The notes beneath the pieces are model-generated. The model was not told the origin of the DNA. It searched no databases and saw only the letters and a list, made by a program, of their open reading frames with translations. Made by a program: the position numbers and the translations under genes. A stretch of DNA of 64,000 nt, from NCBI GenBank assembly GCA_029974595.1, contig JARKRC010000056.1, forward strand, positions 186,001 to 250,000. Reading direction: 5' to 3'. Shown in pieces: positions 5,506 to 26,441 of the stretch. Every line of letters starts with the position of its first letter. Positions within the stretch are counted from its first letter, which is position 1. This DNA comes from Ereboglobus sp. (GTDB lineage Bacteria > Verrucomicrobiota > Verrucomicrobiia > Opitutales > Opitutaceae).

Positions 5506-5549
5506 CACGAAAGGGCGGAGGCGTTTGCGCGCACGTCCAGTGAGCGGCC

Positions 5550-5579
5550 TTGTCTTGCTTTTGCGCCGCAAAATGCAAT
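5550..5579 (+). promoter_or_regulatory. Candidate promoter of the LacI gene (possibly leaderless)
   Basis: TTGTCT (5550-5555) and TGCAAT (5574-5579) are separated by 18 bases and could be -35/-10 elements. Transcription would then begin within a few bases of the ATG at 5590. This fits the lack of any Shine-Dalgarno sequence and suggests leaderless mRNA. The -10 box lies inside the operator at 5574-5586. Weak consensus match; inference. Confidence 0.35.
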
Positions 5580-5586
5580 CGTTGCA
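5574..5586. promoter_or_regulatory. LacI-type operator, copy 1 (TGCAA-TCG-TTGCA)
   Basis: A 13-bp inverted repeat, TGCAA-N3-TTGCA, three bases upstream of the LacI-family start codon at 5590. The same repeat occurs at 6625, 30047 and 30082. It is placed for autoregulation of the repressor gene. Confidence 0.65.
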
Positions 5587-5589
5587 AAC

Positions 5590-6612: not shown

Positions 6613-6624
6613 AAAAACCGGTTT

Positions 6625-6637
6625 TGCAACGTTTGCA
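6625..6637. promoter_or_regulatory. LacI-type operator, copy 2 (TGCAA-CGT-TTGCA)
   Basis: The second copy of the TGCAA-N3-TTGCA repeat, extended by T and A flanks to TTTGCAACGTTTGCAAA (6623-6639). It lies between the LacI gene stop and the GH105-like gene start at 6735, where a promoter for the catabolic operon is expected. Confidence 0.7.
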
Positions 6638-6734
6638 AAGCGCGCCTGCTGACCTTTGCGCGCCGTGTGCGTGTCATTTTCGCATCACGTTCCCAGTCCC
6701 CTTTTCATAATCCAGACACCCGGCCCGCTTTTTC

Positions 6735-7787
6735 ATGTTCACGCAAACCGACACGCATTCTCTCCTCGATAAATTGGGAATCCGCACCATGACACCCGCA
6801 TCGGGCGTTACGCATCCGGATTTCATGATCAACTTTTCCATCTGGCAGTGGCACCAGGGCGTCGCGCTCCAAGGGCTTTATCAGGCCGGCAAGGCGCTGG
6901 GCGACGAGCGTTACCGGCGCTTCTGCACGGATTGGATTGCCGAGCGCCTTTCGGAAGGGACGCCCGCAAAAAGCATCAACAGCACGGCGCCCCTTCTGAC
7001 GGTCGCGTTTCTGCACGAGGAAACACCGCGTCCCGAATATGAAAAGCACTGCCGCGAGTTTGCCGAGTGGTGCATGAAAAGTGCGCCGCGCCTGCCCGAC
7101 GGCACCTACGAGCATTCCTGCACCGACAATGTTTATCCCCAGCAAGTGTGGGCCGACACGCTTTTCATGGGCGGTTATTTTCTTGCGAAGTGGGGTCGCA
7201 TGACCGGCGACGACGCGCTTGTCAACGAGGCCGCGCGGCAGTTTGCCAATCATTACCGTTATCTTCGCGATCCGGCAACGGGGCTTATTTTTCACGGTTA
7301 CGACGGCCTTCAGGGAAAACACATCGGGGTGCTGTGGGGCCGGGGCAATGGCTGGTATGCGGCGGCCACCGCCGAAGTCCTTGCGCTGCTCGGCGAGCAC
7401 CATCCCGCCCATGCGGGGATTCTTGCGGATTTGCGCGAGCAACTCGCCGGAGTCGCCGCCACGCAGGACGTTTCGGGCGGCTGGCGCACGGTGATGAACG
7501 AGCCGTCCAGCTATCTCGAAGCGACCGCCACCGCGGCGTTTGCCTGGGCTTTTTTGCGCGCCGCCGACCTTGGTTATGTTGACGCAAGCTATCGCGATCG
7601 CGCGGTGCGCGCATTCGACTTGCTCGAGGACTGGGTCAACGACGCCGGCGATCTTACGCACAGCTCCGCGGGCACGCCGATCAAACCCGATGCGGAGAGC
7701 TACAACGCGATTCCGTTTGCCGTCACGACATTCTCACAGGGCCTTGGCCTGCTCGCATTCGCCCAGGCGCTCAAATCCGACACATAA
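6735..7787 (+). CDS. GH105/GH88-like unsaturated rhamnogalacturonyl or glucuronyl hydrolase
   Basis: A 350-residue (alpha/alpha)6-barrel hydrolase of the YteR/GH105 type. These enzymes hydrate the 4,5-unsaturated uronic acid that polysaccharide lyases leave at the non-reducing end, releasing it from the oligosaccharide. QVWADTLFMGGYFLAKWG (~137-154) holds Asp141 at the position of the family's catalytic Asp. WGRGNGW (201-207) and the later SSYLEATATAAFAWAF helix are other family hallmarks. There is no signal peptide, so it is cytoplasmic. It is the first gene of a probable four-gene operon (12-27 bp gaps) with a symporter, under a LacI-type operator. This fits import of lyase products followed by hydrolysis. 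The exact subfamily and substrate are not resolved. Confidence 0.85.
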   Translation: MFTQTDTHSLLDKLGIRTMTPASGVTHPDFMINFSIWQWHQGVALQGLYQAGKALGDERYRRFCTDWIAERLSEGTPAKSINSTAPLLTVAFLHEETPRPEYEKHCREFAEWCMKSAPRLPDGTYEHSCTDNVYPQQVWADTLFMGGYFLAKWGRMTGDDALVNEAARQFANHYRYLRDPATGLIFHGYDGLQGKHIGVLWGRGNGWYAAATAEVLALLGEHHPAHAGILADLREQLAGVAATQDVSGGWRTVMNEPSSYLEATATAAFAWAFLRAADLGYVDASYRDRAVRAFDLLEDWVNDAGDLTHSSAGTPIKPDAESYNAIPFAVTTFSQGLGLLAFAQALKSDT

Positions 7788-7799
7788 AATACCCGCAAC

Positions 7800-9659
7800 A
7801 TGAATCCCCGCTCCTCATTCCTCGCCATCGCATTTGTCATTTTCGCTTTGTGCCTTTCCGCGCGCGGGGAAAAAACGCCGCTTTGGACGGCTCCGGACAT
7901 TTCAAAAGCGCCTGCCGAGCTTGAGGCGCAATGGCGGCAGATCACCGATCGCAAACCTGTGGGTGTGCGCGGCGTGTTCCGTTTCGCTCTTGAAGCGGCG
8001 GGCGTGGATTGGAAGCCCGATCGCGTCGAGAAAGCACTCGCTTTTGCCCGCACGCTTCAAGACACCGATCCGTCGAGCGAAACATTCGGTAATTTCCGCT
8101 GGCGCAGCGATCACGACCGCGTGCTCGATCGCAATGGCGTGGAGTTCAGCGCGCAGTTGATGATTCTCATCCACAAATTGCAAAATGACCGCCTTACTCC
8201 GGCTGCGCGCGATCTGCTGCGGCAGATGATGACCGATGCGATTCCCGGCCTGCGAAACCACAGGATTCAGATTTCCTACACGAACATCTGGCTGAAGAAT
8301 TCCTGCGCCCTGATCATTCTCGGGGAAATCCTCGGACGCACCGATGTCACTCGCGACGGACACGAGCGTTTCGACGCGTGGCTCCGGTTTACCGCAAAAA
8401 ACGGCATCACGGAATACGGCGCGGTGACCTATTACGGCACCGATCTCGACGCGCTGGCGATCATAGCAAAGTTTGCCGCGCAGCCCGATACCCGGGCCAA
8501 GGCGATGCAGGCCATCCGTTATCTGTGGACCGATGCGGCGGCCAATTGGTGGGCGGCGGGCGATCGCCTCGGCTGTGCCAATGCCCGCAGCTACGACTAT
8601 CTCTACGGGCGCGGCTACTTTGAGGCGCACACATGGACGGCGGGCTGGCTGCGCGCGCTTCCCGATATTGAAAATGCGGGATGGATCGGCAGCAGCCACG
8701 CCAATCTCGTCACCTTCCGCCAGGCCGTGACGATTCCGCCGCAACGCGAATGGACGGATGCCATCACAGCGCAGGTGCCGCGCACCGTTGTGCAACGCTG
8801 GGGCGAAGCGCCCGAACATACCGCCACGGCCTGGATTGGCCGCCGCGTGAGCATCGCCTCGTCCGGCGCGGGGCGCGGCAGCGACGAGCGCACGCTCGTT
8901 GCCAATCTCGGGGACTCGCCTGAAATTCCGCAGCTCACGCTTTTCATGGACGGGCGGGGCGATCCCTTCGGCACGAAAAAGGTCGCCAATGCCGCCAATC
9001 AGGCGAAGTCGCTGCACATCGTTCCCTTCATTGCCACCGTGCAGCGCGAGGCCGAGGTGCTGCAGCTCCTGTCAAGCGAGCCGCTGGGGCCGAAAACGCG
9101 CTACAAGCCGGGCGATCTTTCCTGTTTCCTGACGCAGCTCACGATTCCGGCGAAGGCGGAAATCTGGATTGACGGCAAAATCGTCCGCGCCGGTTCGCCG
9201 GAAAAACCGCTTGGCGTTCCCGCGGGCGCGACGGTTGCCTTTCGCATCGGCGGCGCGGCGGTCGCCGTCCGCATCCTTTGCGCGGATACAACCGGCGGCG
9301 GCCCGGCGGCCGTGCAGCTTGTCGGGGATTCGAAAAAAAATCCCGCGAGCCGCCTGACGATCGTGCACGACGAAAAGGAGCCGCGCGGGCGCGCCAGCGC
9401 GATTGTCTGGATGCGCGCCGCCGAGAATCTCGACGACGGTGGCTTTGTAAAGTTCATCCGCAACTTTGCCGCGGCCAAGGGCGGCGCCCGCATTGAGGGC
9501 GCCATCGCCCGCGCCGCGGTTGCCGGGATGCGCGGGCCGATGCGCATCGAGGCGGATATCGTGAAGCAGCGTCGCATCGCCGTTGAAGGCGGTGAACCGC
9601 GTCCTGCTTTGCTCAGTGTGAACGGGCGCGAAGTCGGGCTGCCTGTCTTCGAACAATAA
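7800..9659 (+). CDS. Secreted protein of unknown function, lyase-like helical barrel plus beta domain
   Basis: A 619-residue protein with a clear signal peptide (residues 1-23, hydrophobic SSFLAIAFVIFALCLSARG). Residues ~60-300 look mostly alpha-helical with aromatic-rich helices, in the manner of (alpha/alpha) toroid polysaccharide lyases. Residues ~310-619 look like beta-sandwich sequence, the layout of heparinase/alginate/chondroitin lyase-type enzymes. I do not see the HGHxD motif of heparinase II/III or another decisive catalytic signature, so no activity is assigned. The gene lies 12 bases after the GH105-like gene and 27 before a symporter. A periplasmic or surface enzyme producing the unsaturated oligosaccharides used by the operon is therefore a reasonable guess. 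Confidence 0.6.
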   Translation: MNPRSSFLAIAFVIFALCLSARGEKTPLWTAPDISKAPAELEAQWRQITDRKPVGVRGVFRFALEAAGVDWKPDRVEKALAFARTLQDTDPSSETFGNFRWRSDHDRVLDRNGVEFSAQLMILIHKLQNDRLTPAARDLLRQMMTDAIPGLRNHRIQISYTNIWLKNSCALIILGEILGRTDVTRDGHERFDAWLRFTAKNGITEYGAVTYYGTDLDALAIIAKFAAQPDTRAKAMQAIRYLWTDAAANWWAAGDRLGCANARSYDYLYGRGYFEAHTWTAGWLRALPDIENAGWIGSSHANLVTFRQAVTIPPQREWTDAITAQVPRTVVQRWGEAPEHTATAWIGRRVSIASSGAGRGSDERTLVANLGDSPEIPQLTLFMDGRGDPFGTKKVANAANQAKSLHIVPFIATVQREAEVLQLLSSEPLGPKTRYKPGDLSCFLTQLTIPAKAEIWIDGKIVRAGSPEKPLGVPAGATVAFRIGGAAVAVRILCADTTGGGPAAVQLVGDSKKNPASRLTIVHDEKEPRGRASAIVWMRAAENLDDGGFVKFIRNFAAAKGGARIEGAIARAAVAGMRGPMRIEADIVKQRRIAVEGGEPRPALLSVNGREVGLPVFEQ

Positions 9660-9686
9660 CAGACGTCCGCCAGTCCCAATACTTTC

Positions 9687-11252
9687 ATGATAACTCCACT
9701 CCTCGCCACTGCCGAAGTTGCCGCCGGATTCGTCAAGCGCACACTTTCGCCGCTCGATTATGCGATGCTCGCAGTCTATTTTGCCGTCAATCTTGGCATC
9801 GGCTGGTGGTGCGCGCACCGCAAAAAAGGAACTGCTTCCACCGGTGATTATTTTCTCGGCGGCGGGCGCATCAAGTGGTGGGCCGCGGCAATCAGCTTTT
9901 TCGCCACATCGACGAGTAGCATCAGCTTCATGGCCCTGCCTGCGAAGGCCTACATGACCGACTGGCTCCCCTTCGGCTCCGCGCCCGCGCAGGGGCTCGC
10001 CGGCGTGCTCGTCGGCCTCGTGTTCGTGTCGTTGCTGCGCCGCATGAACATGACGACCATTTTCAGCTACCTTGAAAAACGTTTCGACAGGAACGTGCGG
10101 CTTCTCGGCGCGGGCCTCGGCGTGCTGCTCAAGGTGGGCGGGCGCATGAGCGTCGTGCTGCTCCTGCCCGCGCTCGCGCTTTCGGCGGTCACCGGCATGA
10201 ATGTTTTCCTGAGCATCGCGCTCATGGGACTGGTCACCACGATCTATGCGCTCGAGGGCGGTTTTGAGGCCGTCATCTGGACGGAGGTCTTGCAGGTGAT
10301 CGTGACGTTTGGCGGCGTGGCGATTGCCTTTTTCTTCCTTGCCGGGGGTGTCGATGGCGGGCTTGCCGGCATCATTTCGCAGGGAAATGCGGCCAATAAA
10401 TTTGAAATGATTTCCTGGGATTTCGATTTCACGAAAGCCACCGTGCCCGTGTTCATCGGCATGTTTTTTGCAACGGTGTTCACCCAGATTTCCGACCAGC
10501 CGCTCATGCAGCGCATGCTGTCCACGTCGAGCACGTCCGAGGCCAAGCGCACGGTTGTCATCGGCAATATCATCGGCATGGCCAGCTCGGTCATTTTTTT
10601 CTTTGTGGGCACGGCGCTGTGGGTTTTCTACCAGTCGAATCCGGGACGGCTTGATCCGCACCTGCCGGGCAATGATGCGATTTTCCCCTATTTCATCGCC
10701 AACGAGCTTCCGCGAGGGGTTGTCGGGTTGATTGTGGCCGGATTGTTCGCCGCGTCGATGGGCGCGCTCAGCAGCATTCTCAATGCCACGGCATCGGTTG
10801 TCGTATCCGATTTTCAAGGTGTCTTTCGTCCCGGGGCCACGGAGCGTCAGCGCATGCGCCTCGCGCGCGCAACGACTCTCGTGTGCGGTTTGTTTGCGAC
10901 GGTGTCGGCGGCCTATCTCGCATACCTGAATGTCGATTCGCTCTGGGACCAGTTCCTGAAGCTCGTCGCCTTGATCGGCGGTGGGTTCCCGGGCGTGTTT
11001 GCGCTCGGGCTTCTGACCCGCCGGGCGAATTCCATTGGCGTGATGATCGGCGCGGTTGCGAGCATCGGCGTGACCTGGGCCGTCCAGACATTCACTGCGA
11101 CGAATCCCTTTTTTCACGGCTTCGTCGCGATCAGCTCGTGCATGGTGATTGGTTACGTGGCGAGCCTCGTCATTGCGCCCTGGCTTGCGAAGCGGGCAGC
11201 TTCAAAAGACCTCTGCGGCCTCACGCTCTGGGACCGTGCGGGCGGTTCATGA
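9687..11252 (+). CDS. Sodium:solute symporter (SSS family), probable oligosaccharide/uronate carrier
   Basis: A 521-residue inner-membrane protein with about 13 hydrophobic segments. It carries SSS-family features: the periplasmic N-terminus followed by TLSPLDYAMLAVYFAVNLGIGWW, the YFLGGGRIKWW loop, FFATSTSSISFMALPA, and a central segment with VGLIVAGLFAASMGALSSILNATASVV. SSS members beside GH105/GH88 and lyase genes generally import uronates or short oligosaccharides with Na+. It is third in the operon starting at 6735 and is followed 24 bases later by a small secreted protein. Substrate is inferred from neighbours only. Confidence 0.9.
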   Translation: MITPLLATAEVAAGFVKRTLSPLDYAMLAVYFAVNLGIGWWCAHRKKGTASTGDYFLGGGRIKWWAAAISFFATSTSSISFMALPAKAYMTDWLPFGSAPAQGLAGVLVGLVFVSLLRRMNMTTIFSYLEKRFDRNVRLLGAGLGVLLKVGGRMSVVLLLPALALSAVTGMNVFLSIALMGLVTTIYALEGGFEAVIWTEVLQVIVTFGGVAIAFFFLAGGVDGGLAGIISQGNAANKFEMISWDFDFTKATVPVFIGMFFATVFTQISDQPLMQRMLSTSSTSEAKRTVVIGNIIGMASSVIFFFVGTALWVFYQSNPGRLDPHLPGNDAIFPYFIANELPRGVVGLIVAGLFAASMGALSSILNATASVVVSDFQGVFRPGATERQRMRLARATTLVCGLFATVSAAYLAYLNVDSLWDQFLKLVALIGGGFPGVFALGLLTRRANSIGVMIGAVASIGVTWAVQTFTATNPFFHGFVAISSCMVIGYVASLVIAPWLAKRAASKDLCGLTLWDRAGGS

Positions 11253-12635: not shown

Positions 12636-15600
12636 ATGAAAACCTCAATCACCCTCCGCTTCCTGTATCTGCTTTCGATGATTCTCGCGCCACTGGCTGT
12701 GGCAGCCCAGGGGGCTCTTCCGGAGCCGTTTATCCATTACAAATTCCAAGACAGCGGCACCGTGGCCGTGAACAGCGGAACCGCCGGCGCCGCGTTTAAT
12801 CAGATACTGTCGATCAACACCCGTGACAGCATAAACCTCCCGCCACCATCATTCGGCGCCGTGAGCGGCGGGCCATTTGGTGCGACACCGTATCTCGACT
12901 TCGGCAACGCGACCGCGATGGGCAACGGCTATGCGCCGCAATCCACGCTCGCGGCAAACACCGCCGCGCACGGCACGCTTGATTCCATGACGATCACCGG
13001 CTGGTTCCGCACGGACGCGGACCTTCCTGCAACCAATCAAAATGTGACCATTATGCGCGCATATGTGAACAGCCCCAAGCATGGCTGGAATCTCATCTTC
13101 CCCGACGCCAGCGGCAAACTCCGGTTGAACATGGTGGCGGCGACGGCGAGAAACTTTGAGAGTTCCGCCGCGTTTACATCGGGAACGGGCGTGTGGCAGT
13201 TCTTCGCCGTTGCATGGAGCAGCACGGGAGGCGCGCAATGGTATGCGGGCACGGAGGCGCTGGCGCCGGTTGCATCGGGGAGCAACACGACGGCATTCTC
13301 CTATGACGGCAGCGCAGCCGGCACGGTCATTCCCCTGCAGATTGGCGCGCAAAGCAACCAATCCGCCGGCGGCGCATTCAAGGGCAGGTTTGCGGATTTG
13401 CGCGTTTATTCCTCCGTGCTTACGTCCGCCCAAGTGGCATCCGTTTACGATGCCGCCAAGCCCGTCGTCGCATCGTCCGAGCCTGTCATCACAGGCTTCG
13501 CTCCTTCGCAAATCAGCATTGGCGGCACGGTCACGATTACGGGATCGAACTTCACCAACAGCGGCACCAGCGTCGTCACCGACATTCTCTTCGGCACGAT
13601 CTCCACCGGCGCGGCCAATTTCACCGTCGATTCCGATACGCAAATCACGGTGGCCTCCGTGCCTTCCGGCATCACTGCGGGCGGAAACATTTCCGTTCTC
13701 GCCACCAGCGGCACTGCGGTGAGCAGCGGCACGTTTTCACTTGAGGGCAGTCTTCCTGCGCCGCTCGCCCACTACACGTTCGAGGAAAGCGGCACCACCG
13801 TCACCTCCATCCTGAACAACGGCGCGCTTGGCGCTGACTTCAACCTCACTGCCATCGGCGCCGACGCGCGCATCGGACTGGATGGCTCCGGCGTGAACGC
13901 CAAGGGCAAGGCGCTCGATCTCACCGGCAACGCATCCATGAATGTGAATGCGGCCACGGCATACGCGGCCACATCGGCTGCGAAAGCCGGGCTCGACAAT
14001 CTCCCGGCCATGACGGTCACCGGCTGGATCAAGCCGACGGTGGCCCTCAGCTCTCCGGCGGGGGCCATGCTTATGCGTTATTCCGATGGAAGCGGCGGCG
14101 CAATCAACGGCTGGAATATGTCCGTGCAAAGCAGCGATCGCATCGGCTTCAGTGTCGGCAACGCCAGCCAGACCACCTACAGCAGCCCGAACAACACCTT
14201 CAATGCCGGCGCCAACCAATGGCAGTTTTTTGCGATCACATGGTCGGGCACCGGTGGCGGCAAATGGTATGCCGGCACTGAAGTTGGCGCTCCCATCCTA
14301 TCCGGCACAAATCCAGCGACCGCCACGATGGCTCAGAAAAATCAAGTCCTCCGCATTGGATACGCCGGGGCGAACAATGGATTCAAAGGTCTCATGGACG
14401 ACATTCGCGTTTACGGGCAGGAACTCACCGCCGCGCAAATCAAGGCGGTTTACGACAGTGCGCGCAGCGAGTCTTTCGCCAACGAGCTTCCATTTCCCGC
14501 GGCATGGGAAGGCGACGCCGACGCCCGCCGGCTTGCGACGCGCACCACTTACCTGAAACTTGTCGAACGCATCATCGCGGATGGGGCGACACCCCACATC
14601 CTCCGCATCAGCAATGTCTACGACAGCGGCACCGCGCTTTCGCGCTTCTCGCTGTATTATGCCTATGCGCAAGCCTACCGCGCCTCGCTCGCGCCCGCCG
14701 ACATCACCGGTCCGGCAAAAAGCATTCGCGACGGCTATATTGAAAACGGACGCAAGGCCATCATCGCCATCACGAATGCGATCACGAGCGCCGATCCCGC
14801 CATCGTAAAGTCGCAGGCGGCCGAGCAGGCCGGGGCGCAAGGCGCAACCGTTCAGCTCTATCGCCTCCTGGTCGAACTTGGCGTTTTCAACGCAGCCGAG
14901 CAGGGTGACATCGAACAAAAACTCGGCACAGCCGCCTCGGCCATCATCGATCCCGCAATTCACAATCCCGAATACGGCAGCTTCAATCGCAGCGCATCCG
15001 CCGCTGCCGGTTTGGCCGCCACCGCGAATCTTCCCACGCTTTCCGCTGACGCGCGGCGCGCCTCCTGGCTTGCCTACGCCAATGCCGTTTGGAACGACTG
15101 GATGCATGTCGGCGACACCTTTGAGGACGCCCGCGGTTACAACGGTCTCTGGATTTATGCCACGTTTATGCAGGCTGACGAAATGGGCCCGGCCTACCTC
15201 GACGCCATGCGAGGCATGGCCCCTGCCGCGGCTCTTGGCCGCTTTGCAAGCATGTCCGCGCCCAACGGCGTCATTCCCGATTACGGAAATTGTTATTGGG
15301 ATCACGGCCTCGGCTTCTGGCTCTATGCCAGCGAACGGCTCGGAAGTTTCTATGGACGCGCGGACTTTCTGGAGAACGCCACCCGTCTTGCCGACTTTGT
15401 CGAGCGCAACCCCGGCATGGACCTCGGCGACTACGACGGCTTTATCGAAGCCTGCCGCGCGGTTGCTGCGACGCCCGCCGACACCACGATAACGCGCCCT
15501 GACGCACTCGCCACCACGCGAACCACCGATTACGGCGACACCACGCCCGACAAACTCTACCTGCGCACCGGCAACGACCCGGCGACTTCCGCTTACGCCG

Positions 15601-18600
15601 TCCTCGATCTCCACTCGCACGGCTACCACGGTCATGAAGACAGCGCGGCCATTCTCACCTACACCAGCGGTTCCTCGGTGCTTCTACATTCACTCGGGCG
15701 TCTCGACACTTTTGCCAACCAGGCGCAAACGGCCTGGGCTGTTCCGCAGGGCCGGGATATCCTCGACACCCAAAACCGACATGCCGCGAACACATGGACA
15801 CGCTGGCTGGTCAACCACCGCTTCCCCGGCACCTACACGGGTGGTCCGGTGATTGATATTGCCAAAATCAGCACCCTGTTTTTCCGCGTGCAAAATGATG
15901 GCGACGACACCATCACGCTCACCGTTGATGTCGAATCCGTCACCGGTGTGAAAGCGGACGGAACCACGGCGCAAGTCGCCGGACCTTGGACGCTCACCCG
16001 CACGCTCGCTCCGGGTGAAGCCGCGTTTGCCAGCACCACCACTTTCAGCCCCGCGCTCGACCTCTCGCCTTACGAATACGTTCTCGTAAAATGGAAGAGC
16101 ACGCACCCCGATTACACGCAACAGTTCGGCTTCAATGGCGCATCGCTCAATCCGACGGGCTCGCCCGATGGCCGCCCTGCGACGGCCACGCTCCGCACGA
16201 CCGCGGGAGCTTCCGTTATCGATAGCTATGCGATATCCGACACCACCGCGCCCAAGGCCGGGTTCACCCGCATCATGCTGGATTCCGCCGGACGCCAGAT
16301 CGTCCACAACCGCGACCTCCGCATGCGCAAATCCGATGGCGCGCTGTTTGTCCTCGATAGTTTCGAGTTCACCGAAGGCGGCAGCTACACCGTGGGCCCG
16401 ATCTGGCACGCGCAGAACATCGTCTCGCAAACCGCCACGACCGTCATCACTCGTGATGACGCGCAAATCGACACCGCCACCAGCCAGGCCGCCGAGCCCA
16501 GGATGCCGCTGCGTTTCGATTTTGCCGCGACCGACAATGCAGGCGCGGTGACCATCGTCAGCAGCACCTACGCGGCTTCGCGCAATGCCCAGACGAATCA
16601 TTTTGCCGCCACAGCAAGCGGCGCGTATGCGGCTGGCGACGTCGTTTCCATTCTCTCCATACTCCGTCCGGGCACGATCGACACAAACGACACCGTGCCC
16701 GACGCGCCCTCGCTTGTCGCGGTCGGGGCGCGATACGCCAACTATGCCGACGCCACCGGCCAGCTCAGCATCGGCGACGCTCCGCCGCCGCCTCCCGCCA
16801 TCACGGAGTTCACTCCCGAGGCCATCACCATTGGCGGCGCCGTGAGCATCAGCGGTTACAACTTTACCAACGAAGTCACCGGAACCTCGCTTGTCACCAA
16901 CGTCACCTTCGGCGACGTTGCGACCGGCGCGGCGGGCTTCGTTGTCAATTCCGGCACGAGCATCACGGTCAATTCCGTGCCCGCGGGCATCCCCGCGAGC
17001 GGTTATGTCAAAGTGCTCGCCACCAGCGGCACCGCCGTCAGCACCGGTGTCTATACAATCGCCGCCGCGCCCGCCGTTCCTGTCACGCCAAGCGTTCCGG
17101 CGGGTTCCGCGGAGGGCGACAATATCGTCCTCACCGCCAGCGCCACGGGCAACCCCGCGCCCACCTACACATGGGAATATTCCACCGACGGCGGCGTGTC
17201 TTGGCTCGCCATTGCCGATCTCGGCGCGGCCAATTACACACTGTCCGCCGACGGAGCGACCCTGACGCTCAAGTCCGTGACCGACGCCATGCAAGGCCGC
17301 CAGTTCCGGTATGCCGCGAACAACGGCATTGGTTCCGCGATCACCAGCAGCCCGGTTACGCTCGCTTTCACGCCCGCGCCGCCGTCCATCAGCGTTTTCG
17401 ATCCGCTTGCGTTGACCGTCGGCGGCACGATGCGCATTTACGGCAGCAACTTTATCAAAAGCGGCAGCAGCGTCGTCACCGGCATTCAGATCGGCGGAGT
17501 CGCCGCCGGCGCGGACACTTGGATTGTGAATTCGGGCACGCTCATCACGGTCGGCCCCATTCCCTCCACGGTTCCCGAAAGCGGTCAGATCAGCGTTCTC
17601 GCCACGACGGGCACGGCGGTGAGCAGCGGCACCTATACGCTCGCTCCCGACCCCTCGACGATCCATCCGGTCGTTCACTTTGATTTCCAAAACGTCGTCA
17701 GCGGCACGGTGCCCAACATCGGCACACTTGGCGCGGATATGAATCTCACTTTCGCCACCGGCATCGCCGGCGTGAACGCATCCGTGACCCGCGATGGCAC
17801 CGGCCCCAATGGCAACGGCGTCGCGCTCGATCTTTCGAACGCCGCGGGCATGGGCATTCAGGGGCCGCGCGCCGCGACGCGGGCAAACAACAACCTCGTC
17901 AAGCAGCAACCGGCGCTCACCTTCACCGGCTGGTTCAAGCCGGGCAAGGACGCGACCAAGCCCGATTTCAACGCCATCCTCCTGCGCAACACCGGCGCGA
18001 CGGGCAGCGGCGGCGGCTTCATTCTCCGGTTTTTCAGCGGAATCGCCGATGCCACGAAAGTCGGACTTCAGTTCACACTCCAGGACAGTGCCAACGCGGC
18101 CACCGATTTCAAAAGCGAGACGGACAAATATTTCTTCGCCGCAGGCAAACCCAAGTGGCAGTTCTTCGCCGTCACCTGGCATCCCGAAACCGGTGTGAAG
18201 TTTTACCAAGGGGCGGAGAAAAACGACGTGCCGGTGCAGCTTGCAGGCTCAAGCACCGTGCAAAAACAAATGGGCCCCGATCCTTCCAATAGCGGGGCGT
18301 TCATCGTCGGCGCGGGCGGCTCCAGCAACGTTTTCAAGGGCTATCTCGCCGACGTGCGCGTTTACGGCGAAGTCCTCACCGACGAGCACATCGAACTGAT
18401 CCGGCAGGAGGCCATCGCCGGCGCGGGAGTGCCGGATGCGCTCGTCCGCTACACGTTCGATGCGGACAGCGATAGCGCCGTCGCGGCTGTGAATCTCGGC
18501 ACGCTCCTCGGCGATTATGACATGCCGTTCGCAGGCTCCGCCAAAGTCACTCCCGCCGGCACAGGTGTCGGCGGTTATGGCCGCGCGCTCGATCTCTCTG

Positions 18601-21600
18601 CGAATGGCGCTTTCAACGGAGCCGCCGCTGCCTACGTGGAAACTCCGGAGGCAAAATCCGGCATCAGCACGCAAAGCGCGCTGACCATTTCCGGCTGGTT
18701 CAAGCCCAATGCCGCGCTTGCCCCGGGCGGTGTCATCTTCCGCAACGCAGGCGCGCCCGACGCCGGGACTGGATGGAGCGTCACCACCAATACAAACAAC
18801 CGCCTCACGCTCACCATCGGCAACGGCTCGGGTCAGGTCAGCTACAGCAGCTCCGACAACGCCTACAATGCCGGAGCGGGCAAATGGCAGTTCTTTTCCG
18901 TGACATGGGACAAAACCACGGGGGCGACTTGGTATGCCGGAGCCGAAAAAACCGTTCCCATTGAGGTTGGCGCAACGGCTGCCGCCGCCGCGCTTCCTGA
19001 CGCTGCGGTCGCGCAAACCCTCCGCATTGGCCGCGCCGACAGCGCCAGCGGCTCTTTCGCGGGCCAGCTCGATGATCTTCGCGTTTACGAAGGAGCCTTC
19101 ACCGCCGACCAAATCCAGACCATCTACAAACAGGCCGTCCTCGAACCCGCCGATGACGAAAACTCGCTCGACACCCCGGGCTCGTGGGCAGGGGACACGG
19201 ACACGCGACGCGGCGCCGCGCGCCAAGCCTACGTGGGGATTCTCGACCGCGAGATCGCCGCGCAATCCTCCGCGCAACTCGTCGCCATCGAAGCCGCCTA
19301 CAGGGATGGCGCGGCGCTTTCCGCCACCGCCATCTCCTACGCCTACGCGCAAGCCTATCGCGCCTATATCGCCGGTGACGACACTCCGGGAGCCGCGCGT
19401 CAAATCCGGGCGAATTACATCGACGGCGCGCGTCGCGCCTTGCTTGCCGTCACCAATGCCATCGCCGGCCCGCAAGCGAAACAGCAGGCTGACGAACTCG
19501 TCGCCGGCCTCGCGCCGCTCGTGAGCCTTTACCACATGCTCGTCGATCTCCACGTCTTCGACGCCGGGACGCAAGGCGCGCTCGAACAAAAACTGGCCCT
19601 GTGCGCCACTGCCGTCCTCACCAACCGCACCGCGACGCCGACCGTGCCCGACTATGGCAGCCAGCACCGCGCCGCCTCGACTGCCGCAGGTGTCGCCGCC
19701 GTCGCCGCGATTCCTTCGCTTTCCACGCATTCGGATCGTGACACGCTCTGGCTCAAATACGCGAATGCCGTCTGGAGCGATTGGAAACACGATTCCGTTG
19801 CCGGCACGTTTGAGGATTCCCGCGGCGGCAACGGCAAATGGCTTTATTCCACGCTCAAGCAGGCCGACGCATTGGGCGCGGCGCATGTTGCCGAGCTTTC
19901 CGACGCCAATGTGAAGACCGTGTTTTCAGGCCATGTCCACGCGGTCTCGCCCGGCGGGGCGATGCCCGACTATGGCAGCAGCAACTGGGCGGATGGACTC
20001 GGCTCCTGGCTCTACGCCTTCGAGCGTCTGGGCCGAGCTTACGCGCGCCCCGATCTCACCGAAAATGCCACGCGCCTTTCCGTGTTCGTCACCCGCAACA
20101 CGGCGCTCGTTGTCACCGATCTCGAAGGCATTGTTGACGCGCTTCGTGTCGTTGACGCCACGCCCTCCGGCGCAATCACGCGCCCCGATGTCGTCGCCAC
20201 CACGCGCACGACTGATTTCGGCGATACGCTCCACGACAAGCTCTACTTCCGCACCGGCACCGCGACCAATGCCAAGTATGCCGCCTTCGACCTTCACGAT
20301 CACGGATACAACGGCGGCAATGATGCGGGTTCGCTCATCCTGCTCACCGGCACCAACGGCGCTTCCATCACGCTTCACACACTCGGGCGCGCTTCCTCCG
20401 ACGCGGCCAGTCTCCAGCAAAACGCCGCCGCCGTTCCCTCGGGCAGGGACATCCTCGCCACCACGGGGCGTCATGTCGCGAACGAGTGGACGCGCTGGCT
20501 CGTCAACTTCCCCCACCCCGGCAATTACGCCGGAAGGGCTGTGTTGAATCCGGCAGGTGTCACGAGCCTTTTCTTCCGCCTTGAGAACAAAGGCCCGGCC
20601 CAGGTCACGGCTGACGTGACGGTTGAGTCCGTTGTCGGCGTGAAGTCCGATGGCGCTGCCACAACGCTTCATGCCGGCTGGAGCGGATCGCAATCTCTCG
20701 CTCCCGGCGCTGTTGCGAGCGTCACTGCGAATGTCACGCTCGACCTGACGCCTTACCAATACGTCCTCGTCAAATGGAAGAGCGCGCAACCCGGCTGCGT
20801 TGCCAGCTTCGGTTTTGATGGCGCGGCGTTTTTCCCCGCCGGCACAGCCGATGGGCGTCCCGCCACCGCCACGCTTCTCGCCAGCGCCGGTTCGCATGTC
20901 CTCGACGCTTATGCGACGGGCGATGCCGACGCGGCCAAGGGCGGGCTCACCCGCATCATCCTCGATACCTCGGGACGCCAGATTTCGCACACGCGCGACA
21001 TTCGCCATCGCAAATCCGACGGCGCTCTCCTCGTGCTCGACTCCTATGAGTTTGTCGAATCCGGCGGCTACACGGTCGGCCCGGTCTGGCATGCGCAAAA
21101 CATCGTCAGCACCGGCAGCACCACCGTTTCCGGCGTGCCTGTGCTCAGCGTTGTGACACGCGATGACGCGCAAGCGGTTTCCGCCAGCGGCACCGTTGCC
21201 GAGGCGGTCGCGCCGCTTCGCTTCGATTTTGCGGCCACAGGCACGGCCACGCCGGTTGCGCTTGCCCGCGCCACCAGCGCGGCCGGGGGCAATCCGCAGC
21301 AGGAACACTTTGCGGCCACAGTCACCGGCGACTACGCAGCGGGCGAGATCGTTTCGATTCTTTCCGTGTTGCGCGCCGGCGTTGTTGGCACGACGGGCAC
21401 CGCAGCGGGCAATGTTTCGCCGGTTCCGGTGCTCATGCAAGTGGGCGACGCGCAAGGCGCGAACTTCGCCGATGCCGCCAGCCAGCTCGGCATCGGTCTC
21501 AATCCGCCCGTCGCCGCGCCCGCCATCGCGAGCTTCACGCCGCGCGAAGTCACCATCGGCACCCCGCTCACCATCAAAGGCTACAATCTCGACACGGTTG

Positions 21601-24600
21601 AGCACCTGCTCATCGGCGATCAACCGGCGGCGTTTATTATCGATTCTGGCACGCAGATTACAGTGCCCTCGATCCCCGATGGCATTGCGTCCGTCGGCTA
21701 CATCTATCTTTACGCCACCAACGGCAATGCCGTCAGCACGACGCAGTATTCCATCGCCCGTCCCGTGACGATCTCCGTGTTTCCGGAAACCTTCCAGGTC
21801 GCCGATGGTCACGCCACAATGCTCAGCGTGGTGGTCGATGCCAACCCCCCGGCCACGTATCAATGGCAGACCTCTGCCGACGGGGGCGTAACATGGACAA
21901 ATATCGCCGGTGCCACCGCGTCCACATATGGCATCACCGCGGCAACCGCCTCCATGAACGGCACGCTCTATCGCGTCATCGTCACCAACGTCACTGGCAG
22001 CGTCACCAACACCGTTACCAGCGAAGCCGCCGCGCTCGTCGTGAACCCTGCCCAGCAAAAAACACCCGCCGGCCTCGTGCTCGATGCGGCGGGCAACATC
22101 TATGTGGCCGATTACGGCGATCACGTCATCAGGCAGATCGATGGCAACGGCGATGTCACCATCCTCTCCGGCTCCGTCGGCGTGAGCGGCAATCTCAACG
22201 GTCATGGTTCCGGCGCCCGCTTTAATTCGCCCGCAGGCATCACGATCAGCGCGACGACCGGAAAACTTTACGTCGCGGATAGGGGCAACCACACCATTCG
22301 CGAGCTTGCCGCCAGCGGCGTGGCGAACCTCTTTGCGGGTTCCGCGGGGCAGGCCAATTATAGCGACGGGGCCGCCGGCAATGCCCGTTTCAACACACCT
22401 TACGGCATCGCCAGCGACACGACGGGCAATCTCTATATAGCCGATTCCCTCAATCACATTATTCGCAAAGTCACGCCCGGCGGCGCTGTCAGCACCATTG
22501 CCGGCACGCCGAAGGTCAGCGGGACTTCCGATGGCGCTGCCGCGGATGCGACTTTCAACACGCCCAGGGGAATCGCGGTTTATCGCGACGGCAGCATTTA
22601 TGTCGCCGACACGCTCAATCACACCATCCGCGAAATCACCACGGACGGACAGGTCCGCACGCTTGCAGGCCTCGCCGCGGTCACAGGCACGGATGACGGG
22701 GCAGGGACCCTCGCCCGTTTCAACATGCCGCACGGCATGACCATCGGAGGGGACGGACTCCTCTATGTTGCAGACACGGAAAACTCCCTCATTCGCGAGA
22801 TCGACATCGAAACCGGCATCGTTGCCACGCTTGCCGGCAGGGCGCGTGTCATCGGCCAGCTCGACGGGATCCCCGGCGTCGGCACGCTCAACAAGCCGCA
22901 GGGCATCGCGCTCGGGGCCGACGGCCTCCTCTACATTGCCGATTCGGGCAACGGGGCCATCCGCGTCATCGACGAAAACGACAATCTCGTCACCCTCTCC
23001 ATCACGGGAACGGCGACGCTTCCGCAGCCCGAACCCGCGCCCGACCGCGGCGGCGGCACGGGTGAAAACAGCGGAGGCGGTGCGTCCTCGGCCTGGCTCT
23101 TTGCGGCGATGACGGCGCTTGTCTCGTTTCGCTTTATGCGTCGTCACACCGCACTCTTCACTATTATCGCCGGGTTTACTTGTATCGGATTCTTGAATAC
23201 AGACGCCTGTGCGCAACAACCCGCTACGGGCATCGTCCAGGGACAGGTTCTCAACACTGCCACCGCCGAGTATCTCTATCAGGCGCGTGTGCGCATCACC
23301 GCGGTTTCTACAGGCGAACTCCCACGCCAAAATGAAACCCTCACCGATTCCGAGGGCTTCTATCGATTCACTGGCGTTCCTGCGGGTGTCATCACGCTCG
23401 AAGCCAGTTATACGGGTATGCTTCCGCGCTCGACAACGGTTGAGCTTGATTCGTCGGGTTTCGTCGTTGCCGGCACGATCCAGATGAGCATGGCCGCGCC
23501 TGCTGTTGTGAAAGACGACGTTGTTCACTTGGAAAGATATGTCGTTTCGAGCTCACGTGAAATGGCCGGCGCGGCAATCGCGCAAAACAGCCAGCGCTAC
23601 GCGACCAATATCAAGAACGTCGTATCCGTTGACGAACTTGGCTTCACCGGGGATGGCAGCATTGCCGGCGCGATCAAGTTCCTCGCGGGCGTCGAACTCG
23701 AGCAGGACGATTACGGTTTCGGAAACGCCATCACGCTCTCCGGCGCTCCCAGCGCCAACGTCCCCGTCACCATTGGCGGCTTCGATACCGTCACCTCGTC
23801 CGACTTGGTGCAAAACACCACGAACTCCGGCAATCAACGCTCGGTCAATCTCGCGCAGCTCTCGCTCAACAGCGTGTCCCGCATTGAGGTCAACCGCTCG
23901 CCCACGCCCGACATGCCCGGCAGCGCCCTTGCGGGTTCCGTGAACATCGTTCCAAAAAACGCCTTCGAGCGCGTCCGTCCTCTCTACACACTCAAACTCT
24001 TTGCCTCGGCCAATACCAAAAGCATCTCGCTCAACCGCTACTCTGCGCCTCTTGGCGGCACGCACATTCCCTCGCGGCCCAATGCCGTGTTCAACGCCAT
24101 TGTTCCCGTCAACAAACACTTCGGTTTCAGCCTCACGCTAAGCCACAACGAAATCCCGGCCAGCGGAAGCAAAGTCGAACGGATTTCCACGGCCAACTGG
24201 GACAAGTCCACAAACAACTTCATCGACACACCTTCCAACCCCGAGCACTACATGCTCTACAGCTTTGAAGTGCAGGACATCCTCAGTCTTCAGACAAAGG
24301 ACGGCGTCAACCTCACTTTTGATTACAAGCTCTCGCGAGTGGACACGATTTCGCTCGGCTTCAATCAAAATTACAACGTCCTGAAAAGCGGCCAGCGTCG
24401 CGCCGTCTGGCAGCTCGATACCCAGATCCTCGACCTCCACAATTCCACCGTCACCAATGTCCAGAACATTCCCGGCACCAGCACCAACCGCGGCCAGATA
24501 CGCAACGAGACCTATAACAACGACACCTCTGATTCCAACCGCCAGTTCCAGCTGAAATATCGCCATAACGGGCGTTTCTGGAAGGCCGATTTTGGAGCCA

Positions 24601-26441
24601 GCTATGGCGAGGCCGAAAAACAAATGCGCGACTTCGAGCGCAACCATCTTTTCTCCTCCGCCCTCTATCTCAATGGCTCGACGATTAAAATCAACGACAT
24701 TGGCGCATGGGATGTCGGCAGGATCACCGGCGACTATCACGGGATTCCCGTCTCTCCTTTGGACATCGGATCCTATCTCGACGCTGGCGCCATTGCGAAA
24801 ACCTACGTTGACGAAAACGGCGCGAATGTGAATGTTCTCACCTCGCTTCCCGACTTCCGCGTCAAACCGTTCAATACCTCCGACAAGAAAACCCAGCTTT
24901 TCGGCAACATCGGTCGCGATGTCCTCATCGGCAACACCTACCACATTCTCAAGATAGGATTTGACTATACGCAATGGAAGCGCGACCAGCGTTACAACGC
25001 CGCGATCGGCACCGGCGGCGGCTTCATCTACAATGGCACCGACATGCCCTACGATCAGTTTCTTGATACTGGCTACAACCGCGTTCTCCCAATGAACTAT
25101 GGGAAAATCGCTTCGTGGGATTCCGAAAAAATGGGGCGTTTTTTCAACGAAAACCGCGACCTGTTTGTGCAAGCCAACGATGCCAACGACTTCGTCACCG
25201 CCGTCAACAACAGCAAATACATCGAGGAAACCATCACGGCCGGTTATCTGCGCATGGACAGCGAGTTCTTTAACAAACGCCTCCAGCTCACCTATGGCAT
25301 CCGGTTCGAGCGCACCAAGGACGACGGTAGCGGCGTCCGTTACGATCCTTCAGCCATTCTTTACCAGCCCGATCCGGAGGAAAATCCCAACCAGTGGACG
25401 GTTCTCCCTGAATACGCCGGCAAGGCCAACGCGCTCATCACCAAGCGCGCACAGTATTCCGAACGCGCCGCCAAGGCCAGCCGCTCCTATGACAATTGGT
25501 TTCCGAGCATCAACGCGAACTACACCCTACTCGAAAACCTGATTGCACGCGCCTCCTACTCGCAAACCGTGGGGCGTCCCGACACGTATGTCATCGTGCC
25601 TTATCTTCAGATGCCCGACCTTTCAGCCGACACCGAGACGAACACTTTCACCGGCGGCAACCCGGGGCTCAAACCCTGGCATTCGCAAAACGTTTCCCTG
25701 TCGCTCGAACTCTACACAGGCAGCATCGGCAGCATCACGCTTCGCGGGTTCAGGCGCTGGATCAAGGACGCCTACTATCTTGGCGCGATGAATCAAGCCG
25801 ACGCGACCGATCTGCTCGCCTCCTATGGTGTGGATATCAACCAATATCGAAACCCCGTTGTGAGATCCTACCAGACAATCGGTGGAACCGTTGTCACCTC
25901 TGGCCTCGAACTAAGCGCAAACTACAACCTCGATGCTCTGCTCCCCCAATGGGCCAAAGGTTTCCAAGTCAGGGCAAGCGTCGTGCGCAATACCATGACC
26001 TCCGACGACCCCAACGCCTCCTCCGCCATGAGCGCGCAGAAAATGTATCTCTATCCATGGTCCGTCGCCGGACGTCTCTCCTACACGCGAAAATTCTTCA
26101 CCGTCGGCATAAGCGCCAAGTGGAACGACACCCTGCGCCAAGCATACTGGTCGCCCGACCTCAGCACCTACGCGAATACAACGATTCCGGGATCAAACAT
26201 CACGCAAGGCAGCGCCTACGAACCCGGCACCTACGATTACCTCTACCGGATACTCCTTGTGGACCTCGACATCACGATAAACCTCACCAAAAAAATCTCC
26301 CTCTACCTGAACGCGCGCAATATCAACGGCAGCGACCAGAAATATCTCCGCGCCGGCCCCAACACGCCCGACCTCCTGAAAAATTACCGTCGCCTCAAAT
26401 ACGAATCCGTCTGGTCGGCCGGCATGAACATAACCTTCTGA
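12636..26441 (+). CDS. Giant fused protein: duplicated LamG/IPT/heparinase-like lyase/NHL surface protein joined in frame to a TonB-dependent receptor
   Basis: A single open frame of 4601 residues. The start at 12636 is chosen over 12582 because it opens on a signal peptide (MKTSITLRFLYLL..., cleavage near AVAAQ). Approximate domains: LamG 10-275; IPT 281-369; LamG 374-612; heparinase II/III-like lyase 615-1382 with HGHED at 998-1002; IPT 1388-1475; Ig-like 1484-1580; IPT 1584-1670; LamG 1674-1922; LamG 1932-2168; second lyase copy 2172-2955 with NGGND at 2559-2563; IPT 2962-3042; Ig-like 3044-3140; NHL repeats 3144-3455; GGG/hydrophobic/Arg anchor ~3478-3503. From Met3501 the frame continues as a complete TonB-dependent receptor: signal-like segment with DACA|QQ at 3526/3527, carboxypeptidase-regulatory-like domain, plug, and beta-barrel ending in F. 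Two ordinary genes appear to have fused by loss of a stop codon. The lyase part would degrade uronate-containing glycan at the cell surface, and the receptor would import it. Confidence 0.8.
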   Translation: MKTSITLRFLYLLSMILAPLAVAAQGALPEPFIHYKFQDSGTVAVNSGTAGAAFNQILSINTRDSINLPPPSFGAVSGGPFGATPYLDFGNATAMGNGYAPQSTLAANTAAHGTLDSMTITGWFRTDADLPATNQNVTIMRAYVNSPKHGWNLIFPDASGKLRLNMVAATARNFESSAAFTSGTGVWQFFAVAWSSTGGAQWYAGTEALAPVASGSNTTAFSYDGSAAGTVIPLQIGAQSNQSAGGAFKGRFADLRVYSSVLTSAQVASVYDAAKPVVASSEPVITGFAPSQISIGGTVTITGSNFTNSGTSVVTDILFGTISTGAANFTVDSDTQITVASVPSGITAGGNISVLATSGTAVSSGTFSLEGSLPAPLAHYTFEESGTTVTSILNNGALGADFNLTAIGADARIGLDGSGVNAKGKALDLTGNASMNVNAATAYAATSAAKAGLDNLPAMTVTGWIKPTVALSSPAGAMLMRYSDGSGGAINGWNMSVQSSDRIGFSVGNASQTTYSSPNNTFNAGANQWQFFAITWSGTGGGKWYAGTEVGAPILSGTNPATATMAQKNQVLRIGYAGANNGFKGLMDDIRVYGQELTAAQIKAVYDSARSESFANELPFPAAWEGDADARRLATRTTYLKLVERIIADGATPHILRISNVYDSGTALSRFSLYYAYAQAYRASLAPADITGPAKSIRDGYIENGRKAIIAITNAITSADPAIVKSQAAEQAGAQGATVQLYRLLVELGVFNAAEQGDIEQKLGTAASAIIDPAIHNPEYGSFNRSASAAAGLAATANLPTLSADARRASWLAYANAVWNDWMHVGDTFEDARGYNGLWIYATFMQADEMGPAYLDAMRGMAPAAALGRFASMSAPNGVIPDYGNCYWDHGLGFWLYASERLGSFYGRADFLENATRLADFVERNPGMDLGDYDGFIEACRAVAATPADTTITRPDALATTRTTDYGDTTPDKLYLRTGNDPATSAYAVLDLHSHGYHGHEDSAAILTYTSGSSVLLHSLGRLDTFANQAQTAWAVPQGRDILDTQNRHAANTWTRWLVNHRFPGTYTGGPVIDIAKISTLFFRVQNDGDDTITLTVDVESVTGVKADGTTAQVAGPWTLTRTLAPGEAAFASTTTFSPALDLSPYEYVLVKWKSTHPDYTQQFGFNGASLNPTGSPDGRPATATLRTTAGASVIDSYAISDTTAPKAGFTRIMLDSAGRQIVHNRDLRMRKSDGALFVLDSFEFTEGGSYTVGPIWHAQNIVSQTATTVITRDDAQIDTATSQAAEPRMPLRFDFAATDNAGAVTIVSSTYAASRNAQTNHFAATASGAYAAGDVVSILSILRPGTIDTNDTVPDAPSLVAVGARYANYADATGQLSIGDAPPPPPAITEFTPEAITIGGAVSISGYNFTNEVTGTSLVTNVTFGDVATGAAGFVVNSGTSITVNSVPAGIPASGYVKVLATSGTAVSTGVYTIAAAPAVPVTPSVPAGSAEGDNIVLTASATGNPAPTYTWEYSTDGGVSWLAIADLGAANYTLSADGATLTLKSVTDAMQGRQFRYAANNGIGSAITSSPVTLAFTPAPPSISVFDPLALTVGGTMRIYGSNFIKSGSSVVTGIQIGGVAAGADTWIVNSGTLITVGPIPSTVPESGQISVLATTGTAVSSGTYTLAPDPSTIHPVVHFDFQNVVSGTVPNIGTLGADMNLTFATGIAGVNASVTRDGTGPNGNGVALDLSNAAGMGIQGPRAATRANNNLVKQQPALTFTGWFKPGKDATKPDFNAILLRNTGATGSGGGFILRFFSGIADATKVGLQFTLQDSANAATDFKSETDKYFFAAGKPKWQFFAVTWHPETGVKFYQGAEKNDVPVQLAGSSTVQKQMGPDPSNSGAFIVGAGGSSNVFKGYLADVRVYGEVLTDEHIELIRQEAIAGAGVPDALVRYTFDADSDSAVAAVNLGTLLGDYDMPFAGSAKVTPAGTGVGGYGRALDLSANGAFNGAAAAYVETPEAKSGISTQSALTISGWFKPNAALAPGGVIFRNAGAPDAGTGWSVTTNTNNRLTLTIGNGSGQVSYSSSDNAYNAGAGKWQFFSVTWDKTTGATWYAGAEKTVPIEVGATAAAAALPDAAVAQTLRIGRADSASGSFAGQLDDLRVYEGAFTADQIQTIYKQAVLEPADDENSLDTPGSWAGDTDTRRGAARQAYVGILDREIAAQSSAQLVAIEAAYRDGAALSATAISYAYAQAYRAYIAGDDTPGAARQIRANYIDGARRALLAVTNAIAGPQAKQQADELVAGLAPLVSLYHMLVDLHVFDAGTQGALEQKLALCATAVLTNRTATPTVPDYGSQHRAASTAAGVAAVAAIPSLSTHSDRDTLWLKYANAVWSDWKHDSVAGTFEDSRGGNGKWLYSTLKQADALGAAHVAELSDANVKTVFSGHVHAVSPGGAMPDYGSSNWADGLGSWLYAFERLGRAYARPDLTENATRLSVFVTRNTALVVTDLEGIVDALRVVDATPSGAITRPDVVATTRTTDFGDTLHDKLYFRTGTATNAKYAAFDLHDHGYNGGNDAGSLILLTGTNGASITLHTLGRASSDAASLQQNAAAVPSGRDILATTGRHVANEWTRWLVNFPHPGNYAGRAVLNPAGVTSLFFRLENKGPAQVTADVTVESVVGVKSDGAATTLHAGWSGSQSLAPGAVASVTANVTLDLTPYQYVLVKWKSAQPGCVASFGFDGAAFFPAGTADGRPATATLLASAGSHVLDAYATGDADAAKGGLTRIILDTSGRQISHTRDIRHRKSDGALLVLDSYEFVESGGYTVGPVWHAQNIVSTGSTTVSGVPVLSVVTRDDAQAVSASGTVAEAVAPLRFDFAATGTATPVALARATSAAGGNPQQEHFAATVTGDYAAGEIVSILSVLRAGVVGTTGTAAGNVSPVPVLMQVGDAQGANFADAASQLGIGLNPPVAAPAIASFTPREVTIGTPLTIKGYNLDTVEHLLIGDQPAAFIIDSGTQITVPSIPDGIASVGYIYLYATNGNAVSTTQYSIARPVTISVFPETFQVADGHATMLSVVVDANPPATYQWQTSADGGVTWTNIAGATASTYGITAATASMNGTLYRVIVTNVTGSVTNTVTSEAAALVVNPAQQKTPAGLVLDAAGNIYVADYGDHVIRQIDGNGDVTILSGSVGVSGNLNGHGSGARFNSPAGITISATTGKLYVADRGNHTIRELAASGVANLFAGSAGQANYSDGAAGNARFNTPYGIASDTTGNLYIADSLNHIIRKVTPGGAVSTIAGTPKVSGTSDGAAADATFNTPRGIAVYRDGSIYVADTLNHTIREITTDGQVRTLAGLAAVTGTDDGAGTLARFNMPHGMTIGGDGLLYVADTENSLIREIDIETGIVATLAGRARVIGQLDGIPGVGTLNKPQGIALGADGLLYIADSGNGAIRVIDENDNLVTLSITGTATLPQPEPAPDRGGGTGENSGGGASSAWLFAAMTALVSFRFMRRHTALFTIIAGFTCIGFLNTDACAQQPATGIVQGQVLNTATAEYLYQARVRITAVSTGELPRQNETLTDSEGFYRFTGVPAGVITLEASYTGMLPRSTTVELDSSGFVVAGTIQMSMAAPAVVKDDVVHLERYVVSSSREMAGAAIAQNSQRYATNIKNVVSVDELGFTGDGSIAGAIKFLAGVELEQDDYGFGNAITLSGAPSANVPVTIGGFDTVTSSDLVQNTTNSGNQRSVNLAQLSLNSVSRIEVNRSPTPDMPGSALAGSVNIVPKNAFERVRPLYTLKLFASANTKSISLNRYSAPLGGTHIPSRPNAVFNAIVPVNKHFGFSLTLSHNEIPASGSKVERISTANWDKSTNNFIDTPSNPEHYMLYSFEVQDILSLQTKDGVNLTFDYKLSRVDTISLGFNQNYNVLKSGQRRAVWQLDTQILDLHNSTVTNVQNIPGTSTNRGQIRNETYNNDTSDSNRQFQLKYRHNGRFWKADFGASYGEAEKQMRDFERNHLFSSALYLNGSTIKINDIGAWDVGRITGDYHGIPVSPLDIGSYLDAGAIAKTYVDENGANVNVLTSLPDFRVKPFNTSDKKTQLFGNIGRDVLIGNTYHILKIGFDYTQWKRDQRYNAAIGTGGGFIYNGTDMPYDQFLDTGYNRVLPMNYGKIASWDSEKMGRFFNENRDLFVQANDANDFVTAVNNSKYIEETITAGYLRMDSEFFNKRLQLTYGIRFERTKDDGSGVRYDPSAILYQPDPEENPNQWTVLPEYAGKANALITKRAQYSERAAKASRSYDNWFPSINANYTLLENLIARASYSQTVGRPDTYVIVPYLQMPDLSADTETNTFTGGNPGLKPWHSQNVSLSLELYTGSIGSITLRGFRRWIKDAYYLGAMNQADATDLLASYGVDINQYRNPVVRSYQTIGGTVVTSGLELSANYNLDALLPQWAKGFQVRASVVRNTMTSDDPNASSAMSAQKMYLYPWSVAGRLSYTRKFFTVGISAKWNDTLRQAYWSPDLSTYANTTIPGSNITQGSAYEPGTYDYLYRILLVDLDITINLTKKISLYLNARNINGSDQKYLRAGPNTPDLLKNYRRLKYESVWSAGMNITF
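23136..26441 (+). other. TonB-dependent receptor module (possible independent start at 23136)
   Basis: This is the segment of the giant gene that by itself would be a normal ~1101-residue outer-membrane receptor. It has a signal peptide (MRRH, hydrophobic core, DACA|QQ), a carboxypeptidase-regulatory-like beta-sandwich (~23220-23480), a plug domain containing SRIEVNRSPTPDMPGSALAG, and a 22-strand-type barrel with AVRYDP/LQLTYGIRFERTKDD-like strands and a terminal NITF. It has no stop codon or recognisable Shine-Dalgarno sequence before ATG 23136, so independent translation is only a possibility. Receptors of this class import large carbohydrate fragments using TonB/ExbBD energy. Confidence 0.75.

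Follow-up and report, generated by a model that had tools for sequence, protein, structure and literature searches.

Cell-surface proteins that end in a GlyGly-CTERM tag are the closest described relatives of the locus discussed here. The tag has been described at the extreme C-terminus (PMC3237569); it is reported to function as an independent motif (PMC13393428) and, in Vibrio, to lead to surface attachment (PMC6219818, PMC13393428). In the case of VesB of Vibrio cholerae, the intramembrane protease rhombosortase is described as cutting at the second glycine, with attachment of a glycerophosphoethanolamine-type group (PMC6219818). The locus described below shares with this system (TIGR03501/TIGR03902; VesB-RssP) a Gly-rich motif, a single membrane helix, a basic tail and a rhombosortase in the genome. 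In contrast, its tag is internal and is followed by a signal peptide and an entire second protein. FbcH of Bradyrhizobium is a cytochrome b/c1 polyprotein that is split at an internal signal peptide; it too is a bacterial chain separated at such a site, but it is not known to carry a sorting tag and is made of other proteins. Gingipains are cut inside one exported chain, in which no internal membrane hairpin is known to join an outer-membrane receptor. Their precursors in Porphyromonas, described as initial polyproteins (PMC5837995), resemble the present case in being surface-destined bacterial polyproteins. SusC/SusD and BtuB/BtuG place a surface protein beside a TonB-dependent importer, but these are described as products of separate genes, the partner being a surface lipoprotein (PMC10404256). 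Titles and abstract beginnings in an open-access library yielded no polyprotein with an internal GlyGly-CTERM tag.

The window is a stretch of 64,000 nucleotides from Ereboglobus sp. On its + strand a frame of 4601 aa runs unbroken from the Met codon at 12636 to 26441 (the stop codon is 26439-26441) and is open already from 12582. It starts with a signal peptide, MKTS...AVAA (12636-12707, boundary by eye). The front half carries Laminin_G_3, TIG, Ig and NHL domains (Pfam), the NHL repeats occupying 22062-22991 (limits approximate), and two related putative enzyme modules of 771 and 787 residues (14475-16787 and 19149-21509), to which we return. Then comes the junction, SGGGASSAWLFAAMTALVSFRFMRRHTALFTIIAGFTCIGFLNTDACA|QQPATG, in which the predicted receptor cut falls after residue 3526 (numbered from 12636; 3544 if numbered from 12582). 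Inspection divides the junction into a GGG motif with a first hydrophobic stretch (23073-23129), which is GlyGly-CTERM-like, internal and below the TIGR03501 cut-off; a basic loop, RFMRRHT (23130-23150), with an in-frame ATG at 23136; and a second hydrophobic stretch, which is a signal peptide with the end DACA|Q (23151-23213). The TonB-dependent receptor occupies 23214-26438. Read from 23136, the back half has CarboxypepD_reg (23235-23465), Plug (23601-23936) and TonB beta-barrel (24816-26324) domains (all Pfam) and is a complete receptor of this type. The core of the original prediction, a secreted multidomain protein that runs on without a stop into a complete TonB-dependent receptor, is thus confirmed, the frame being open from 12582 or 12636 to 26441.

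Thirteen frames of the same build are found in six genomes of two genera, eight of them in the four genomes of the window's genus and five in the second genus. The first relatives were sought with the NHL-junction-receptor stretch as query. In the window's genus the fusions come two to a genome: the window protein and L050 (G000), L053 and L070 (G001), L048 and L054 (G002), and L049 and L069 (G003). A census of Plug domains in these four genomes gave 135 matches, nine in frames of more than 2000 aa, namely the eight fusions and L071. (L071, at 4789-11058 of its G003:C2 segment, is an alpha-2-macroglobulin carrying CarboxypepD_reg and Plug-like matches, and was rejected as a ninth fusion.) A junction profile built from seven window-genus fusions and run against 200 genomes of the family found the five fusions of the second genus, none of which had been used to build it: L102-L105 in G061, all on one contig of 7.8 Mb, and, in G113, L106, its front truncated by the contig end. 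L105 and the window protein are homologous end to end, from the first signal peptide through the end of the receptor (45-54% identity in the main segments, 49.7% in the receptor), and by this comparison the two are probably orthologues; L105 has one enzyme module versus two and a loop of 24 residues versus 7, the frame being open in both.

A sequencing or assembly error that deleted a stop between two genes had been named at the outset as the plain alternative. The genomes are drafts, and one of them does contain frame errors: G001 has an untrimmed end overlap (L109, G001:C1:1-14000, against L110, from 4155000) of 12.8 kb that is 99.7% identical and contains 38 gap openings, the frame errors lying in one of the two copies. 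The occurrence of the same fusion in another genus, in L105 on its 7.8-Mb contig, and of 11 more such frames leads us to reject error as the explanation; its probability is negligible. A wide profile (A3) applied to 252 genomes of the family, with the best 8 candidates per genome scored, has only the already-known receptor fusions among the matches listed (11 junction-spanning matches in one piece, L103 partial and L054 as two pieces). A phylum survey of 387 genomes with profile A4 (best 16 candidates each) gave matches in 18 genomes, 17 within the family and one, G519, outside it. Since only the best candidates per genome were scored in both surveys, absence elsewhere is not proven.

BLAST and Pfam sort the fusions by front part and receptor into four groups. 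Group A (the window protein and L105) has a lyase-fold front and group B (L053 and L103, 65% and 68% identical) a pectate lyase front. Group C combines autotransporter-type PATR repeats with putative Ig domains and has two receptor subgroups (L049/L054/L102/L104/L106 and L050/L069/L070); group D (L048) has Ig domains and repeated units that look, by eye, like right-handed helices. NHL repeats ahead of the junction are common to all. The receptors of A, C and D share about 24-38% identity over partial or full lengths, and those of group B (L053/L103) have no BLAST match to the other groups at 1e-5. Such differing fronts, attached to receptors that are distantly or not detectably related, imply that the join arose several times or moved as a unit.

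The junctions themselves are built alike. In all 13, GG(G)A leads into a hydrophobic stretch, which a basic loop separates from a second such stretch with A/S|Q at its end (the Gln at +1 in 13/13 carries no independent weight, as the pattern used to place the site itself requires A/S and then Q). By inspection, each has the Gly-rich motif, membrane helix and basic tail of a GlyGly-CTERM, the window in a weaker form, GGGASSAW. The KD value of the first stretch is 1.4-2.4 across the fusions and only moderate, 1.52, in the window, while the loops of 12 fusions (L054 left out) contain 3-9 basic and 0-2 acidic residues. The two hydrophobic stretches around a basic loop that had been pointed out in the window are therefore present in its relatives as well. 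Three of the eight window-genus junctions (L053, L069 and L050) exceed the TIGR03501 cut-off; the tags of the window, L048, L049, L054 and L070 are absent from the matches of that search at E<=1. A GlyGly-CTERM is expected at the extreme C-terminus, but the window's tag is internal, with the receptor after it. The junction loops of L050, L054 and L150 (a join of two surface proteins, see below) resemble, by eye, repeat-derived DNA read in frame.

Each of the four window-genus genomes encodes two rhombosortases that score over the TIGR03902 cut-off, compared with 0/14 control genomes. In all eight a GLSG motif is visible, with a His farther along the chain; we take these to be the catalytic residues, as in rhomboid work. 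A GspD-like secretin is matched at near full length in three of the four genomes, always under the type II cut-off (GspD only). The original prediction had envisaged a single cleavage at the junction, by signal peptidase I. That site is still the predicted one, but with rhombosortases present and a first stretch that resembles a GlyGly-CTERM, two cuts are expected, not one.

The frame is likely to encode a polyprotein that rhombosortase and signal peptidase I process into its mature parts. A single chain would start at the first signal peptide, and its front half (LamG, Ig/TIG, the two lyase-fold modules and NHL) would pass through the inner membrane until the Gly-rich motif and first helix halted transfer, with the basic tail left on the cytoplasmic side. 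Acting as an internal signal peptide, the second helix would then enter the membrane again, so that the receptor is exported. A rhombosortase cut at the Gly motif would free the surface enzyme, perhaps in lipid-anchored form, and a signal peptidase I cut after DACA would free the receptor for insertion into the outer membrane. With one message and one chain, the enzyme would be made together with the importer that takes up its products, and in matched amounts. Both cuts are what we infer, and the chain might instead stay uncut and act as one membrane-tethered giant protein. This is very unlikely: a hairpin in the inner membrane should hold the receptor off the outer membrane, and the second stretch ends in signal-peptide-like fashion in 13/13 junctions, at sites chosen by the A/S-then-Q pattern. 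If the two-cut polyprotein is real, a tag defined as C-terminal doubles as a processing site inside a chain, and bacteria rely on polyproteins of a virus-like kind for delivering a surface enzyme along with its product importer. The fusion offers a direct test of one chain feeding two envelope sorting routes. Gene calling and annotation would give such chains wrong names and miss either half.

Unfused counterparts of both halves exist. Profile A4 found 29 tags in G000 (13) and G003 (16). Five are internal (the window, L050, L107/L126, L049 and L069); the other 24 are all terminal, with a stop directly behind the basic tail, 29-43 codons past the start of the matched segment, and the Plug census has no separate Plug gene in the stretches of 1.6 to about 5 kb downstream of them. 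Standalone receptors that have their own Met and signal peptide and are related to the window's are L059 (47.6%) and L047 (30.7%). Terminal tags on the one side and the L059 receptor on the other thus bear out the claim that each half would be normal alone. In G003:C5, two GlyGly-CTERM genes (L142/L134) overlap, the ATG of the second frame lying 13 nt before the first ends.

Junctions of the same kind also join proteins that are not receptors. Two surface proteins are joined in a 4949-aa frame of G000:C25 (L107 + L126) and likewise in G064 (L111), G079 (L112) and G061 (L150). In L131 of G023 (4994 aa) three proteins are linked: one with Ig/NHL domains, a GH28 protein and a receptor with a Plug score of 22.0 (cut-off 23.9). 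In two relatives of L131 the proteins are separate at the last boundary: stop and start overlap as ATGA in G064, and in G079 an ATG follows the stop after 2 nt. The G023 fusion at this boundary rests on one draft genome, in which a single-base error is possible. L149 (G061:C1, about 1588990) is a receptor fusion in which a loss of about 65 nt from the signal-peptide region has broken the frame. The adjacent or overlapping unfused pairs of G064 and G079, set against the fused state in G023, together with the broken copy, favor a reading in which stops are lost in tight gene pairs and the fusion, processed but without advantage, is fixed by drift. We regard this as unlikely, since the frame has stayed open in both genera while the proteins diverged by about 50% and the loops changed in length, and since the recurrence with unrelated receptors looks independent. 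If the polyprotein reading is extended beyond receptors, a general system of this family, with in-frame cassettes of an internal GlyGly-CTERM plus signal peptide that join two to three envelope proteins, rhombosortase and signal peptidase I as the proteases and packed pairs with overlapping stop and start as the evolutionary source, is an evenly balanced possibility.

Is the receptor made from a start of its own? In the window, L105 and L053 an ATG lies 25-26 codons ahead of the cut (26 in the window), whereas the candidates in L069 (a GTG 20 codons ahead with a Shine-Dalgarno-like GGAGGT upstream of it) and L070 (a TTG with GGAG) are weaker. Five of the 13 fusions (L048, L054, L103, L104 and L106) have no ATG, GTG or TTG 17-50 codons ahead of the predicted cut, so that their receptors would lack a signal-peptide start of their own, unless a rarer one is used (CTG and rarer starts are outside this count). 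The ATG at 23136 means that some receptor may be separately initiated in the window. Initiation there gives MRRHTALFTIIAGFTCIGFLNTDACA, a good signal peptide, and it could be that most receptor is made in this way, as from a nested gene, the fusion product being secondary. The retention of an ATG at 25 codons in L105 and L053 and the sister states with an ATGA overlap (G064) or a 2-nt gap (G079) are consistent with such an arrangement. It is nevertheless decidedly unlikely, given the five fusions that have none of the three start codons in range and the lack of any stop that would allow coupled re-initiation. No Shine-Dalgarno-like word precedes 23136, which counts weakly, since the start at 12636 is itself without a clear one. 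No promoter- or terminator-like site was found in 21221-23953 (a weak test).

The front half had been called a lyase in the original prediction. A Pfam search of the enzyme modules at E up to 5 finds no lyase family, nor does Pfam give one for six distant relatives except Hepar_II_III_C in L159 (0.077), and PDB sequence searches returned nothing useful. A model of module 1 built from nine sequences has a pLDDT of 71 and a pTM of 0.67 (an earlier model from 3 sequences, pLDDT 42, was set aside). It has an alpha-toroid plus beta-sandwich fold, and Foldseek returns 19 matches at E<=0.001, 18 to lyases and one to human dermatan sulfate epimerase. Compared with polysaccharide lyases of the heparinase/alginate-lyase type, it reaches Z values up to 21.9, with TM-scores that are low (0.23-0.41); for a portion of the helical domain there are matches to sugar epimerases and complement C3 as well. 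Low TM-scores and matches outside the lyases mean that the model backs the fold, not the activity. The lyase label thus finds no support in Pfam and moderate support in predicted structure for a heparinase/alginate-lyase-type fold in module 1. For module 2, which is 51% identical to it (alignment A5), the fold is read from module 1.

Upstream of the fusion in the window are GH88, SSF, LacI and PfkB/HAD genes; downstream are sulfatase, GH95, GH106 and GH59-like genes. The GH88 gene (6735-7787) is on the + strand, as is the fusion, and its product plausibly takes the next step after a lyase. The neighborhood would fit the use of an acidic glycan, with a lyase outside, a receptor for its products and GH88 for the unsaturated ends. 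On the - strand of the window, at 42413-49285, a 2290-aa PATR-repeat protein is encoded in a group with GH106, GH95 and sulfatase genes.
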